Shown: one piece after another, positions 25,152 to 53,374 of the stretch
Position numbering within the stretch: position 1 is the stretch's first letter
Layout: the number at the start of each line of letters is the position of its first letter
Assembly (NCBI GenBank): GCA_014706295.1
Contig: JACSVZ010000002.1
Coordinates: forward strand, 15,732,494 to 15,796,493
DNA from: Lycocorax pyrrhopterus obiensis
Taxonomy: Eukaryota; Chordata; Aves; Passeriformes; Paradisaeidae
Length of the DNA stretch: 64,000 bases
Direction: 5' to 3'
Program-made: the position numbers and the translations under genes
Notes under the pieces: generated by a model
Databases searched by the model: none
Told to the model about the DNA's origin: nothing
The model's input: the letters and a program-made list of their open reading frames with translations, nothing else

Positions 25152-25688
25152 TTACATGAAGAGGAAAACTTCAGGGAAAAATAACAAACACAGAATTTCC
25201 ACTGGACTTAAAAATTCATTTGGACAGGACAGAAAAATAAAACCCTGAGGAACTGAATCAAGTGCAGGAAAGCAGTAGGAATCCAAGGACTTAGGCTTAC
25301 ATTTGCTGGGACCGGGAATGTCTTTGCTCATGCTGCAGGCAAAGGTGTGATGCAGCTGTCTCCATGTGCAGCACTGGCTTTTCCAGCCATGGCAGGTGAG
25401 CTCCGTCAGGCAGCCATGACACGCAGTTCCACTGATAAGAGAGTAGCAATGGGGTCTGCCCCAAGGGCTGCAGGAGGGGCTGCAGCACCCCTGTCTGCAA
25501 ACGTGGCCACAGGCCAGCCCCCCACTTGCCACCTGTCCTGGTGGCCCCATACCTGCACAATCAGGTAAACACCAGGCAAATGAAAAACACCCTTTAGAAG
25601 GTGCATCCCTATAAACATATAAATAGGTGTATGCTATACACACTGATAAATTAGTCCTGAGTTCCGTAGCAAAGGCTCTGATTTTCAT
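25152..25688 (-). other. Long unassigned open frame, Cys-rich in the middle
   Basis: This minus-strand frame of 178 codons is the longest uninterrupted frame outside the provirus. Its middle part, antisense to about 25330-25570, is rich in Cys, Gly, Pro and His, while the ends are AT-driven and look random. The GC-richer middle is open on several frames, which lowers the odds of stop codons by chance. An acceptor-like 'ctgattgtgcag' on the minus strand lies just before the GC-rich part. I recognise no domain and think chance is the more likely explanation. Confidence 0.15.
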
Positions 25689-44300: not shown

Positions 44301-45330
44301 CAGAATAACAATGCCTAAGAGAAGCCATAATGTCTCATGTACGAAAGACAAAGGAAGAGAAAGGATAGTCAGACACTGGTCACATCCTAATGGAAAAGAG
44401 GTCTCCAGAGTCAAGGACTTTTTACTATAGCACCTTTTTTAAGGTTTTGGCTTTTAGTCTTGAAACTTTTGGCTATTTTCTGTCTAAATATGGTGTGAGA
44501 GTAAGATAACTAAACTCCCATTTTACACTAGCAATAAAAAGCTTCAGGTGTGTGTCAACACTGTCAGAGCTGTGGGTGTTAAGTGTGAGCTGCCGCCTTG
44601 TCCCATTCCAGCAGGGCTGAGCAGACCCCTGGGCTGGGCTCCCTGCAGGGGAGCTGCCTTTACAGGGATGCATTGCCTAGGCTGAAAAGGAGGGTTTTCT
44701 AGTGTTTGCCCCAAAGAAAACTTCACTTTCTATCGTATAATTTTCAGTCCGAAACTTCGGATGCATCAGGAATGAAACAGCTTTTACAGGAGAGGATATC
44801 CTGGGAGATTCCCATTGCAGCGAGTGCCTGGCCCTCAGCTCCCAGCCTGGGGAAGAGGTATCTGTCCACCATGAGCCATCACTGAAACCCTGCTGCTGAG
44901 GGGGAAGAATCGATCTTCATCAGGAAATTGATAAAAAGGACTTTCTTGTCAAGAATGTTTGTAAACAGACTTTTCCAGCAGCTGCTCAGTTGGTCTGTCA
45001 TGGAGGAGGTCAGGAGAAAGCTACGTGATCAGAGGTGCAACCAGCCCAAGTGCTCTGGGATGTGATGATCAGATTTTCCATTTCAGATCTTTAAAAAAAA
45101 CCCCAAACAGCCACTTGTTTTAGTGCCTAAATGGCAGCTTAGGTCACTTGATAATTAACTACTTAAGCTTTTACTAGGTGTGCTATGTAACACTTACTTT
45201 TCAGGACCTGTGATTAGGCTGTCCCTGTCCCCATCCAGCAGCTGTTCAACTGCACAGATTTTTATAGAATGGAAAATGTCACCATTAACACAGGCATTTT
45301 AAGCAAAGTATTTGTGGATTTTTTTCTGCT
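41353..45330. other. No gene recognised
   Basis: Non-coding AT-rich DNA. Open frames of up to 94 codons at 42058-42443 overlap on both strands and have no motif. No RNA gene or mobile element was recognised. Confidence 0.45.
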
Positions 45331-45417
45331 CCTCTCCTCTCCTCTCCTCTCCTCTCCTCTCCTCTCCGAACCTCTCCGAACCTCTCCGAACCTCTCCGAA
45401 CCTCTCCGAACCTCTCC
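45331..45417. repeat. Two-stage minisatellite: CCTCT run, then 10-mer CCTCTCCGAA x5
   Basis: 45331-45360 is six perfect copies of CCTCT. From 45361 the unit becomes CCTCTCCGAA, repeated five times without error to 45410, followed by a partial CCTCTCC. The longer unit contains the shorter one, so the array appears to have grown in two steps. It gives an artificial Ser/Pro/Leu-rich plus-strand frame. Confidence 0.97.
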
Positions 45418-48340: not shown

Positions 48341-48429
48341 GTTTATGCCTTGATGACCTGAGGCATCATGGGCCCATCGAGCTAGGAACAACTCTCTCTT
48401 GTGTTTCCAATTTAAGTTTGTCTGTGACA
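48341..48429 (-). pseudogene. pol: Integrase N-terminal fragment, truncated
   Basis: After RNase H the frame continues to LFLARWAHDASGHQG, the His-His half of the integrase HHCC zinc-binding domain. The Cys-Cys half and the catalytic core are absent: similarity stops near 48345 and a TGA follows at 48338-48340. The provirus therefore ends within the first zinc-binding motif, probably at a deletion or rearrangement junction. Confidence 0.75.
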
Positions 48430-49054
48430 CCTTTATCTTTGCAGCCTGATCTACTTGTTCGTTGTTTCGATGTTCCTCATTAGCTCTACTTTTGGGGACA
48501 TGAGCATCTACATGGCGGACTTTTACGAGCAGCTTTTTCACCCGGGCAGCAATGTCTTTCTACTCTTCAGCAGCCTAGATGAGTTTTCCTCTACGCTGCT
48601 AATTAGTCTTTTTCTACTTTTTTAGCTATTTTCACAGAGCATTGGCTACTATCTACGAATCAGTATAGAGGTAGAGCTTTGGCTACTCCTTTCTTTCAGC
48701 AATGTCTAGGGCTAGTTGAACAGCTTTGAGTTCAGCAAGTTGGCTTGATCTACTTTCTCTTTTAATAGCTTTTGCAACTCGGCGTGTGGGACTCTATACG
48801 GCTGCTTTTTACTTTCGTTTCATCCTTACAATGCGACAAGAACCATCGGTGAAAAGAGCGTAGCATGTGTTTTCTGCTGGCAGTTGGTTGTACGGTGGAG
48901 CTTCTTCAGCACGTGTCACTTGTTCTTGTTTATCTTCGTCACTGAGACTAAAGTTTTCACCTTTAGGCTAATTTGTAATTATTTTTAAAATCTCAGGGCG
49001 ATTCAGTTTTCTAATACGGGCGCGCTGTGTGATGAGAGCAATCCACTTGCTCTA
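48430..49054 (-). pseudogene. pol: RNase H remnant, most heavily interrupted part
   Basis: The first catalytic motif, ALFTDGSCR, is intact (Asp at 48845-48847). The later LYLYTDS motif keeps its Asp at 48659-48661. Between them ESRSSQLAELKAVQLALDIAE fits the Glu-containing helix. Twelve stops fall in about 500 bases: TAG at 49052, 48968, 48794, 48683, 48653, 48626, 48614, 48599, 48575 and 48560, TAA at 48809 and TGA at 48632. The region ends with VRHVDAHVPKSRANEEHRNN, typical of the RNase H C-terminus. The reading frame is otherwise the same as gag and RT. Confidence 0.88.
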
Positions 49055-49399
49055 TGTGGCATTGGTGGCATGGTGGGTAGAGGGAACCTCTGCTTTGAAC
49101 ATCCACCTCAGCACCGGTAGCCGGGGTGCCAGGAGGAGCTGTGCTTTAGTGCCGATTACTTCTGAGGCAGCTTGGATTCCTTCATAGGCGGCTAAGATTT
49201 CTTTTTCTGTTGGGGTGTAGTTGGCTTTAGACCCTCTGTAGCTTCGACTCCAGAATCCCAGTGGTCGGCCTCGAGTCTTATCAGACACCTTCTGCCAAAG
49301 GCTCCAGGACAGACCATGGCTCTCAGCTGCAGAGTAGAGCACGTTCTTTACTCCTGGTCCTGTCTTGACTGGGCCAAGGGCTACCGCATGAGCAATTTC
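49055..49399 (-). pseudogene. pol: Pol connection/tether domain remnant
   Basis: It is in frame after the RT thumb. It contains NNFHWSPKQQQAFAQIK just upstream and then WSRSYRGSKANYTPTEKEIL, which resembles the RNase H of Ty3/gypsy-type elements. In retroviruses this ancestral RNase H is known to have decayed into the tether, with a second RNase H added after it. Here a second RNase H indeed follows. The segment itself is free of stops; a TAG closes it at 49052-49054. Confidence 0.75.
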
Positions 49400-50399
49400 T
49401 TGCTTGATCTGGGCAAAGGCTTGTTGCTGTTTAGGGCTCCAGTGGAAATTGTTTTTCTTGCGGGTAACCACGTAGAGAGGACTCACAATCTGGCTATATT
49501 TAGGAATATGCATTCTCTAAAAGCCTATGACGCCTAGGAAAGCTTGTGTTTCTTTTTTGTTAGTTGGTGGAGACATTGCTGTGATCTTATTGACGACCTC
49601 AGTGGGAATTTGACGTCGTCTATCTTGCCATTTCACTCTTAGGAATTGGATCTCTCGAGCAGGTCCCTTGACTTTGCTCTTCTTGATGGCAAAACTAGCT
49701 TTTAGGAGAATTTGGATGATTTTCTCTCTTTTTTTGAACACCTTTGCTGCGGTGTTCTCCTACACAATGATGTTATTAATGTACTGCAGATGTTCTGGAG
49801 CTTCACCCCTTTCTAGTGCAGCCTGGATTAGTCCATGGCAGATGGTGGGACTGTGCTTCCACCCCTGGGGCAATCGATTCTAGGTGTACTGCACGCCCCT
49901 CCAAGTGAAGGCAAACTGTGGCCTGCACTCTGCTGCCAGAGGAATGGAGAAGAAGGCGTTGGCAATGTTAATAGTGGCGTACCACTTCGCTGCTTTGGAC
50001 TCCAGCTTATACTGGAGCTCCAATATGTCCGGCACGGCAGCGCTCAGTGGTGGAGTCACTTTATTCAAGGCACGATAGTCCACAGTCAATCTCCATTCTC
50101 CTTCAGATTTGCGCACAGGCCAGATGGGGCTGTTGAAGGGTGAGTGGGTTTTGCTAATCACCCCTTGGCTCTCTAAGTCACGGATCATCTTGTGGATGGG
50201 AATCACAGCATCTCGAGTTGTCCGGTACTGTCGGCGATGCACTGTCGAGGTAGCAATTGGTACTCTTTGTTCCTCTTCTTTCAGAAGGCCTACTGCAGAT
50301 GGGTTCTCTGATAGTCCAGGCAAGGTATTCAATTGCCTGATGCTTTCTGTCTCTACAGCAGCTATTTTAAAAGCCCACTTGAGTCCCTTTGGGTCTCTG
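49400..50399 (-). pseudogene. pol: Reverse transcriptase remnant with Asn in place of catalytic Asp
   Basis: The fingers region shows GVISKTHSPFNSPIWPVRK and EWRLTVDYRALNK. Motif A reads ATINIANAFFSIP, with Asn (AAC, 49967-49969) where retroviral RTs have the catalytic Asp. Motif B reads RLPQGWKHSPTICH. Motif C reads QYINNIIV, with two Asn codons (49772-49777) where the Asp-Asp pair is expected. TAG stops are at 49880, 49760 and 49517. All three Asp-to-Asn changes can arise by single G-to-A steps. Either class of damage alone would abolish polymerase activity. The thumb continues through about 49740-49520. Confidence 0.9.
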
Positions 50400-50719
50400 A
50401 AATGCCCTCCTTGGAGGAAGTCTATGCCCAAAATGCATGGGGCCTCTGGGCCAGTCACAATGAAATGTTTCTTCTACTCATTTTCAGTTAGGCTCACCTC
50501 AGCTTTTACTAGGGTCAAATTTTGTGACCCACCTGTTACACCAGTAATAGAAACAGATTCTACCCCCACATGTTGCGATGGGATTATTGTGCACTGCGCA
50601 CCAGTGTCAACTAAAGCATCATATTTTTGTGGTTTTGATGTACCAGGCCAACGAATTTACACAGTTCAAAAAATACGGTTTTCCCTAGCCTCTACCTGGT
50701 TAGAGGCAGGGCTCCTTTA
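50400..50719 (-). pseudogene. pro: Retroviral aspartic protease remnant
   Basis: It follows gag in the same frame. The active-site triad motif is in ALVDTGAQCTIIP, with Asp-Thr-Gly at 50608-50600, and is intact. The C-terminal flap-partner motif CILGIDFLQGG lies at about 50434-50405. These two motifs and their spacing are typical of retroviral and retroelement proteases that cut the polyprotein. Three stops interrupt the frame: TGA 50666, TAA 50657 and TAG 50474, so no full protease could be made. The boundaries with gag and RT are approximate because all three share one frame. Confidence 0.85.
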
Positions 50720-52490
50720 ATTTTGGTTATCTTTCTTTTTATCATTTTTGGCAGATTGGCTACGGGCAACTGGAGCTACTTTTTTTTTGGTAAAATTTCT
50801 TTTTTGAGACTTGTGCTCTTTTAATTCGTGCACTCGTGCTGCCAGAGCAGAAGTGGGCTGTGGACCCCACTTCCTCATGTCTTCTCCACTGTCACACAGG
50901 AATTTTTATAGCTCACTTCGTGGGATGTACCTTTTTTTTAGGGAACGTCCTCGTTGGGTATCAGAATCTCGGATTTGTACTGCTGAGGTTTGGAGAAAGC
51001 CCTCTTTCATCTCTTTCATCTCTTTTTTGAGTTCTTGGAAATTCGTTTTTATACTGTCTTCTAAATTCTGCACACGTGTTTTCACAGCTGCGATCTTTGC
51101 ATGTGTTGGGCCATGCACAGAGTCTGCATATACTCGGAGCTTCGTTGCCATATCTTGCACGGTCTCATTTGCACCGTAATCTGGTTTTATTAGTGCTAAA
51201 GCAGACTTATATTTTGATGGCCCAAGCTGTATGAGCTTTCGCCACATGAAAGGACTAACTCTGGCCCGGTCTGGACTTTTCAATTTTGGGTCATCTGTGA
51301 AGACAACCTCTACCACCCTTAGTTCTCTCAGGCATTGAATCCTTTGTTCAATGGTCTTCTACTGGGTTTGCTGCATATAGAGATCATCTGCACACAGATA
51401 TCTCTCTCTTACACTACTCAAGAGCCGTCTCTAGACACTGGCAGAGTCAGCCTCCCTTATCATCTTTTGGTCAATAGCTGGATCACGTGACAGGGATCCC
51501 AAATGCCTCGCTTCAGCGCCGTTTAGCATTACATTATTACCTGCAGCATCTTAAATACGGACTATCTAACTTATTATGGATTTATTAGACCGTCGGGTGT
51601 AGTCTTTTCTTAGGCTGTGAAGGTCCTTTATGGACAGGGACTCAGTAATGGTTTCTGTGCCTGAGTCAGTTGGTGGTTTTGAGGTTCTTTCTCTTGCATC
51701 ATCATCATCTTTCACTGGGCGATCGGTTTTGGTTGTGTGCTTTTTCTTCGTGACAGGAGCAACTGTCAATGGCTTAGTGTCTCTTTCTTGTTTGGCTGCA
51801 GCTTGAGTGACTGGGGTGTCTGCTGGTTTATTTTTTTGCCCCTCTGCCTTTATCTGTTGCTTTACAGTACCCAGCAGTGTGCGATAGGCATATGCCAAGG
51901 CTCAGCATATTGCGATGAGCTGTTTCTCATTAGAATTGTCATTGTATTTCTTTTTCAGATATTTCTCCACCTCAGCTGGGTTTTGAATTTGTTCAGGGGG
52001 GTAATTGCAAATTATCGGGTCAGAGAATTTCTTTAGGATTTGGCTCATATCCTCCCATTCTCCACCCCACTCAGGATTTTCCACCTCTGGGACAGGTGTC
52101 TCCTCAGTTACCCTGGAAATCTGAGCCCTCATTTTAGACAAGCTGCAAACCATATAGAGGAAGACTACCAGATTAAATACTAGGAGGGTGGTCTTTTTAA
52201 CATCTAGGGGAAACTGAACTTTCTTAAAAGATAATGTATCAAATTTAAAGGGGAGGGAGATGAAAGTTTGGGAAACCCCATCTCCTCCTCTTCTAACAAA
52301 CTGAGTGCAATTACTAGTAAACTCTCAGAACAGGCTACTGAAACTAGGACTGGGGTTAGGACGGAGAAACGACCTATTATACACGCTTTGAACAACTGCT
52401 TGTACCTCTGTTGACTTTTTATAAATTATTATCACTGAGCAAAGCAAAATAGAAATCCGGATTCGTGCTCCTGCTCTGTAAAAGTGTCTT
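50720..52490 (-). pseudogene. gag: gag remnant of the ERVL-like provirus
   Basis: It encodes the structural polyprotein in intact elements. The first in-frame ATG is at 52153-52151, but the frame stays open upstream to about 52495 apart from a TGA at 52325, with no earlier ATG. The product looks Lys/Glu-rich, with segments such as TPVPEVENPEWGGEWEDM, KPLTVAPVTKKKHTTKT and a coiled-coil-like KTRVQNLEDSIKTNFQELKK. No CCHC zinc knuckle is visible, consistent with some class III gag proteins. In-frame stops are TGA 52325 and 51902, TAG 51566, 51431 and 51359, and TAA 51551, 50906 and 50717 (lowest base of each codon). No frameshift was found. The gag assignment is by position and continuity of frame, not by a diagnostic motif. 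Confidence 0.7.
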
Positions 52491-52700
52491 ATCAGCTACA
52501 GGATCAGACCAAGTTGTGGATAGGCAAACAGGGACTAAAAAACCACTAGTACCTCAAGCAAGCCTAGGGACTAAAAAGATGTGAGTATATCCAGCCAGAG
52601 AGACATTATGAACTCAACCAACATGGTAACTACTTTACCCTAACACAAAGTAGTTAAATTCAAACTAAGAATGTAATTAGTACAGGTTTTTTCACTTTTC

Positions 52701-52723
52701 TTCGAATCCTGCCGACTACGCCA
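52701..52723 (-). promoter_or_regulatory. Primer-binding site, tRNA-Ser type
   Basis: The minus strand reads TGGCGTAGTCGGCAGGATTC and three more bases, 9 bases after the LTR end. Its complement equals the T-arm and acceptor end of vertebrate tRNA-Ser (AGA/TGA type, acceptor 3' strand GACTACG plus CCA) as I know it, over all 23 bases. This site primes minus-strand DNA synthesis. Mammalian ERVL elements are named for a leucine primer; a serine primer is known in the related HERV-S group. Confidence 0.85.
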
Positions 52724-52732
52724 ATAAGAATT

Positions 52733-53374
52733 TGTGCTGGTTTGGCCAAAATCTAGCAATATATCCTCTGAGAGGAAACCAGGTTACAACCACCCTTCCA
52801 CCCACAGGGTTCGGGGAAAAAAAGATATTTTCCTCGAAGGAAAGTGAATGAGATAAGAACTATTTTATTTAACAAACACACAGGAAAAGGATAATAATGC
52901 TAAATAATGAAATGAAATCTCTCGCTATAGAGAGAAACCTGGGAGATTTCAGAGTCCTTCTGTAGGTGTGGTCTCTCTCCTCCTCGGAGCTGGGTCGGCG
53001 AGGGCCCACCCCCCGAGCCTCGGGGAAAAATTCTCCCGATGTGTTCTGATGTTGTTGAACAGTCCAGAAGAGAAGAAGGGAAAAAACCAAAGTCCCAGGA
53101 AACAAAATGCAGCTTTCCGTCTCACGCCGGGAAGAGAAGAAAAAAAAACCCCAAACCGCTGGCTGAAGAAAGCAAGCAGGGTGCTCCTTCCGTGCTCCTG
53201 CAGCCAGAGAACGCAGAGGAGTGTAATCTCTGTGTCCTTGGGAAACTGTTTTGAAACGTTCGTTTGGTTTTTTTCTTTTCTCCAGCTCAGTTTAAAGGCA
53301 CAGAAAAGGCACAATATTACTTTTTGGGCATAGAGCATGATAGGAGATACACATGATAGAGTCACCCCAAGACA
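52733..53374 (-). repeat. 5' LTR of the ERVL-like provirus (642 bp)
   Basis: On the minus strand it begins TGTCTTGGGGTGACTC and ends GGCCAAACCAGCACA, giving the TG...CA termini of LTRs. It contains an AATAAA poly(A) signal (52864-52869, minus). It also has a GC-rich block near 52985-53030. The primer-binding site follows 9 bases beyond its end, which fixes this as the 5' LTR. Frames within it (52869-53365) are not genes. With only one LTR present, the insertion cannot be dated by LTR divergence. Confidence 0.9.
52864..52869 (-). terminator. LTR polyadenylation signal AATAAA
   Basis: AATAAA on the minus strand, within 'gttaaataaaatag', about 130 bases before the LTR's 3' end. This is a normal position for the R-region poly(A) signal. 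Confidence 0.65.

Follow-up and report, generated by a model that had tools for sequence, protein, structure and literature searches.

How does an endogenous retrovirus come to carry 26 stop codons in a reading frame that has barely shifted? The question is raised by a 64,000-nucleotide stretch of the genome of Lycocorax pyrrhopterus obiensis, a passerine of the family Paradisaeidae (assembly GCA_014706295.1, contig JACSVZ010000002.1, positions 15,732,494 to 15,796,493), which we analysed as a whole and call the window. On its minus strand lies a provirus, hereafter the window copy, whose relatives in the same assembly are designated by L numbers. An earlier note, drawn from the letters alone, had listed the stops between 48560 and 52327 and proposed that they were the mark of G-to-A hypermutation. 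All 26 are where it placed them (17 TAG, 5 TAA and 4 TGA, in the minus-strand frame whose codons have a lowest base congruent to 2 modulo 3), and comparison with same-genome relatives bears the proposal out: on the plus strand of the provirus, nearly every difference is a G-to-A change. The whole of the evidence makes it very probable that the window copy was edited during reverse transcription by an APOBEC1-like enzyme. The two parts of this explanation differ in strength: that a deaminase acted during reverse transcription seems almost certain from the pattern of substitutions, and the enzyme was probably of the APOBEC1 type, judging by context and by the deaminase loci present.

Differences from relatives in the same genome

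A 601-base query from the reverse transcriptase region found 871 candidate places in the assembly, of which 40, including the window's own, were scored, and 39 copies were examined (38 relatives and the window copy). The earlier note had suggested an alignment with such relatives, which might have revealed an even spread of substitution types, or stops shared by descent together with many insertions and deletions. Neither was found. Over the 5,028 sites from the long terminal repeat (LTR) to the point where the window copy breaks off, 187 of its 188 substitutions relative to L003 are G-to-A, the other being a single C-to-T, and four sites are gapped; in the central 3.6 kb, all 160 substitutions are G-to-A and there are 2 gap openings. 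The choice of relative matters little: in the same central part, L002, L005 and L007 give 159, 153 and 160 G-to-A changes with 3, 1 and 1 other substitutions, respectively.

The stops follow directly from these changes. In L003, 24 of the 26 are sense codons, each converted by G-to-A alone, so that close copies free of these 24 stops are present in the same genome. As to the other two, one would, to judge from where it lies, mark the gag-pol junction and has a counterpart stop in L003, and one falls in the leader, outside the aligned stretch. The frame is still recognizable as the coding one: between 48,000 and 53,000 it contains 37 stops, against 120 and 122 in the other two frames of the strand.

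Editing depends strongly on the following base. Relative to L003, the window copy is changed at 108 of 362 GG, 78 of 427 GA, 1 of 267 GC and 0 of 252 GT sites; thus 186 of the 187 changes lie at GG or GA, which corresponds to YC on the minus strand with CC preferred to TC. The earlier note had named GG as the edited context, which holds as far as it goes, GA being a substantial second target. In the central part, where GC and GT are changed at 1 of 215 and 0 of 164 sites, the contrast with GG and GA has p = 3e-37, and the most affected trinucleotides are GGA (56/96) and GAA (40/118). Pooling eight edited copies, with L022 left out as older, gives the same order: GG 420/2088, GA 265/2624, GC 9/1712 and GT 4/1312. 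Read on the minus strand, a pyrimidine precedes the edited C and T is favoured at position -2, the best target being TCC, followed by TTC. Copies differ somewhat in their GG:GA ratio (p = 0.10 for the central part of nine copies; p = 0.04 for eight copies without the 5' LTR), and this difference gives a reading with two enzymes no more than weak support.

Long terminal repeats and the timing of the edits

The internal region of the window copy (48346..52731, minus strand) is edited at 185 of 704 GG/GA sites, against 1 of 85 in its 5' LTR (52732..53374; p = 1e-9). A comparison that is independent of outside relatives is offered by proviruses that retain both LTRs, since the two LTRs of a provirus come from a single U3-R-U5 copy. 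In seven other edited proviruses, the 5' LTR has G where the 3' LTR has A at 77 positions and the reverse at 1, with 2 other transitions and 6 transversions, whereas five unedited proviruses show no such difference in either direction, with 1 other transition and 2 transversions. In the other edited copies, the 3' LTR is thus more edited than the 5' LTR, and edits are mostly denser toward the 3' end. Within the internal region, the 5'-to-3' slope is positive in all nine copies; for seven of them, no more than 2 of 200 permutations reach the same steepness, and for L012, 13 of 200 do.

The nearest-relative test classes 14 of the 39 copies as hypermutated, a proportion that is not a genome-wide estimate because the sample was picked by similarity to an edited copy. 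Thirteen remain when the stretch used to find the copies is excluded, and L014 falls narrowly under the context threshold (39/49). Eight other edited copies each have between 19 and 49 edit sites in common with the window copy, an overlap 0.9 to 1.3 times as large as context would predict, and the editing events therefore look mostly independent. Copies from older or other subfamilies (L022, L023, L026, L027 and L041) are also hypermutated by the same test, which indicates that editing has recurred through the history of the family. The window insertion itself may be young: at a neutral rate of about 2e-9 per site and year, its single non-G-to-A substitution relative to L003 over 5,028 sites suggests an age on the scale of tens of thousands of years, as a rough figure.

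These observations bear on explanations that dispense with a deaminase or place it at another stage. Dead proviruses do gather stops, and the usual decay of an integrated copy, at CpG sites as elsewhere, would supply them, but the spectrum rules this out: beside the G-to-A changes there is just that one other substitution, and in the central part a G that follows a C is changed at 3 of 89 sites. The earlier note, too, had argued against CpG decay. Editing of the copy once integrated fares no better, as the edits respect the LTR border and differ between the two LTRs, and we give this whole group of explanations next to no weight. APOBEC1 edits RNA in mammals, which makes the viral RNA a conceivable target before reverse transcription; C-to-U changes in RNA, however, predict C-to-T on the plus strand, of which there is one, and U3 is copied into both LTRs, yet these differ 77 to 1. 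Strand and LTR asymmetry together rule out RNA editing, whose probability we regard as negligible. The LTR asymmetry fits neither the editing of RNA nor that of integrated DNA. There remain errors of the reverse transcriptase or an imbalance of the nucleotide pool, without any deaminase. In human immunodeficiency virus (HIV), low dCTP does give an excess of G-to-A, but the two-base context described above, with GGA and GAA so often changed and GC and GT hardly ever, argues against copying error, and the one-way difference between LTRs is awkward for it because first-strand errors in U3-R-U5 would reach both. We consider this explanation highly improbable.

Deaminases encoded in the assembly

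A deaminase acting during reverse transcription would have arrived with the viral particle and converted C to U on the minus strand, plus-strand synthesis then fixing A opposite; the insertion would have been dead on arrival. We looked for candidate enzymes with one family profile, PF08210, which gave seven matches at five loci across the assembly. By best solved-structure match, the C1101 locus is APOBEC2 and a plus-strand locus on C1085 is AID. The C1111 locus is APOBEC4/NAD1-like (75 bits for NAD1, 70 for APOBEC4). The last two, L069 and L070, lie on the minus strand near AID (G000 C1085, about 88.75-88.77 Mb) and are 36% identical. Birds are not known to have the mammalian APOBEC3 genes, and this single search found no APOBEC3 beyond the loci just named.

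APOBEC-1 is the best solved-structure match of L069. We label L070 APOBEC1-like on account of its position near AID and of its bird relatives, which are called ABEC1 or APOBEC-1-like wherever the name goes beyond "hypothetical" or "uncharacterized". The zinc motif HAE...PCxxC is intact in both loci and is kept in 237 of the 239 relatives found. In a tree of 20 rows, L069 and L070 fall into two fully supported groups, each with its exons next to those of Aphelocoma, a corvid, a position that makes a songbird host close to the crows likely; the same nine other birds occur in both groups, so that the duplication is old. Identity to the Lycocorax sequence is lower for the L070 type than for the L069 type in Aphelocoma (72% vs 85%), Ptilonorhynchus (59% vs 83%) and Columba (58% vs 74%), and on these figures the L070 type looks less conserved among birds and faster-changing.

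One or both of these APOBEC1-like loci would be the source of the editing enzyme. We infer this from the misfit of the AID context and from the rest of the PF08210 search, which gave only APOBEC2 and the APOBEC4/NAD1-like locus besides. AID mutates DNA, and its gene is present in the assembly close to both candidates. Its WRC context, however, as given in the passages used here from PMC4144122, reads GYW on the plus strand, and such sites are edited at 8 of 1504 places over the eight copies; in the window copy, GC and GT together account for 1 of 519. Context thus rules out AID unless that of this bird has changed its preference, and we hold it to be a very improbable editor. A different deaminase acting at the same stage is a better rival, though still an unlikely one: APOBEC2, the APOBEC4/NAD1-like locus, or an enzyme absent from the assembly or missed in it. 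Both named loci are there, the list of candidates comes from one family search, and a passage of PMC3880073 ascribes low mutator activity to zebrafish APOBEC2. On the other side, APOBEC2 and APOBEC4 are described in part of PMC7764263 as family members that do not deaminate, and L069 and L070 would suffice: the same passages of PMC4144122 report a YC context for APOBEC1, and those of PMC3880073 present lizard APOBEC1 as an enzyme that mutates DNA and inhibits retroelements.

Several observations weigh against the proposed explanation. In Pfam, L069 scores higher with APOBEC4_like (172 bits) than with APOBEC1 (154 bits), and L070 scores higher with SNAD4, NAD1, APOBEC4_like and APOBEC2 than with APOBEC1; its best solved structure is APOBEC3G, with APOBEC-1 third. 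The provirus prefers GG to GA, that is, C over T upstream of the target, whereas for rat APOBEC1 the emphasis is on T as the favoured upstream base (PMC4144122). The reliance on a single profile search, PF08210, counts here too. Finally, the window copy has no 3' end, and its own slope is weak, being equalled in steepness by 20 of 200 permutations, so that a gradient is not established for this copy alone.

With an APOBEC1-like editor still the probable one, a broader conjecture may be offered, which we hold tentatively and would sooner doubt than affirm: in songbirds, a duplicated APOBEC1 may have taken over the job of APOBEC3, with the second and faster-changing of its copies, the L070 type, being loaded into retroviral particles, editing minus-strand DNA at TYC and killing about one third of the sampled family copies on their arrival in the germ line.

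Layout of the provirus and comparison with known systems

The earlier note had confined the provirus to 48560..52327. That interval does hold the stops, but the element is longer, running on the minus strand from 53374 down to 48346. Alignment with the LTRs of relatives and a reading of the junction put the start of the 5' LTR at 53374. Of the TG...CA expected of an LTR, TG is present at the start; the end, as aligned in L003, reads ...CACAA. The bases directly after it resemble what we take to be a tRNA-Ser primer site. By eye, the frame then runs through gag-, protease-, reverse transcriptase- and RNase H-like parts to the start of integrase, and we scanned ten of its stop-free pieces with Pfam. 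The end of the leader and the gag-like region (50720..52324) are named from position and reading only, their three pieces having no retroviral match. A protease-like piece (50477..50656) scores 20.3 bits with RVP, just below the cut-off of 20.7. The matched part of the reverse transcriptase (RVT_1, E 1.2e-7) is at 49898..50116, residues 120-192 of the piece 49883-50473, and that of its RNase H-like domain (RT_RNaseH_2, E 5.4e-14) at 49154..49441, residues 26-121 of the piece 49055-49516. Three pieces from the last stretch before the breakpoint, where stops are densest (48347..48967), have no retroviral Pfam match; the stretch was read by eye as the end of RNase H and the start of integrase.

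Similarity to four relatives stops at 48345..48346, inside integrase. L003, about 6,645 bases long in all, continues for about 1.6 kb beyond this point and has a 3' LTR; the rest of integrase and the 3' LTR are accordingly missing from the window copy, which also shows no target-site duplication on reading of both flanks. The loss may stem from a deletion after insertion, or a broken complementary DNA (cDNA) may have been joined in. A 4-bp target-site duplication is the rule for Class I (ERV1) endogenous retroviruses, and this trait, absent from the window copy, is present in its relatives: we found it in eight of the nine for which both ends were located (13 were tried), L006 having a mismatch. 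Among the best 120 of 990 protein relatives of the reverse transcriptase piece, every one that carries a species name comes from a bird, with Hirundo (89%) and Zosterops (82%) the closest. No relative of this piece was found in IMG/VR.

Elsewhere in the window, a tandem array of the 10-base unit CCTCTCCGAA occupies 45328-45417, with copies matching at 100%, and adjoins a CTCCT array; an open frame of 178 residues without Pfam match lies on the minus strand at 25152-25688. Rfam finds nothing in the window at gathering scores.

Editing of LTR elements in songbirds is already in print: in the parts of PMC6523648 and PMC6497032 considered here, Knisbacher and Levanon are cited for finding the strongest LTR-element editing in birds, above all in zebra finch and oscines. 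The phenomenon is therefore known, and the window provirus is a new and very clean member of it. Their 2016 survey and our analysis are alike in the G-to-A editing of LTR elements; as far as citing papers describe the survey, what sets the present case apart is the detailed comparison of a single provirus with near-identical copies from the same genome, together with a test of 5' against 3' LTR, per-copy context and the deaminase loci of that assembly. The literature passages we covered contain neither an LTR test within bird proviruses nor an editing fingerprint set beside two old APOBEC1-like lineages from one and the same genome, and in a coverage that was partial and did not include the main survey we found no report of a bird APOBEC1 tested against an endogenous retrovirus. 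The family offers a clean fingerprint within a single genome (strand, LTR asymmetry, context, unedited beside edited copies), and what is new is that this fingerprint narrows the choice of enzyme. With a short candidate list in the same assembly, the enzyme question comes down to bench work with a handful of proteins. Should APOBEC1-like enzymes prove responsible, APOBEC3 would not be needed for retroviral cDNA to be edited.

Two further systems invite comparison, each as presented in the passages at hand. Edited endogenous murine leukaemia proviruses show G-to-A far in excess of C-to-T, stops, a 5'-to-3' gradient and a TTC (possibly TCC) context attributed to APOBEC3 (PMC2041998). They resemble the bird copies in the excess, the stops, the gradient, the editing at TTC and the inferred timing of editing, just before integration; the difference is that the mouse has APOBEC3, while here, in a bird, TCC is the best context and TTC the next. 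The lizard case shares with ours a sauropsid APOBEC1 as DNA mutator, which in the Lycocorax copies is the probable rather than the established agent, and G-to-A edited elements in the genome; it was built on assays with long interspersed nuclear elements (LINEs) and a survey of the lizard (PMC3880073), whereas the present one concerns a young LTR provirus in a bird that has two old APOBEC1-like lineages.

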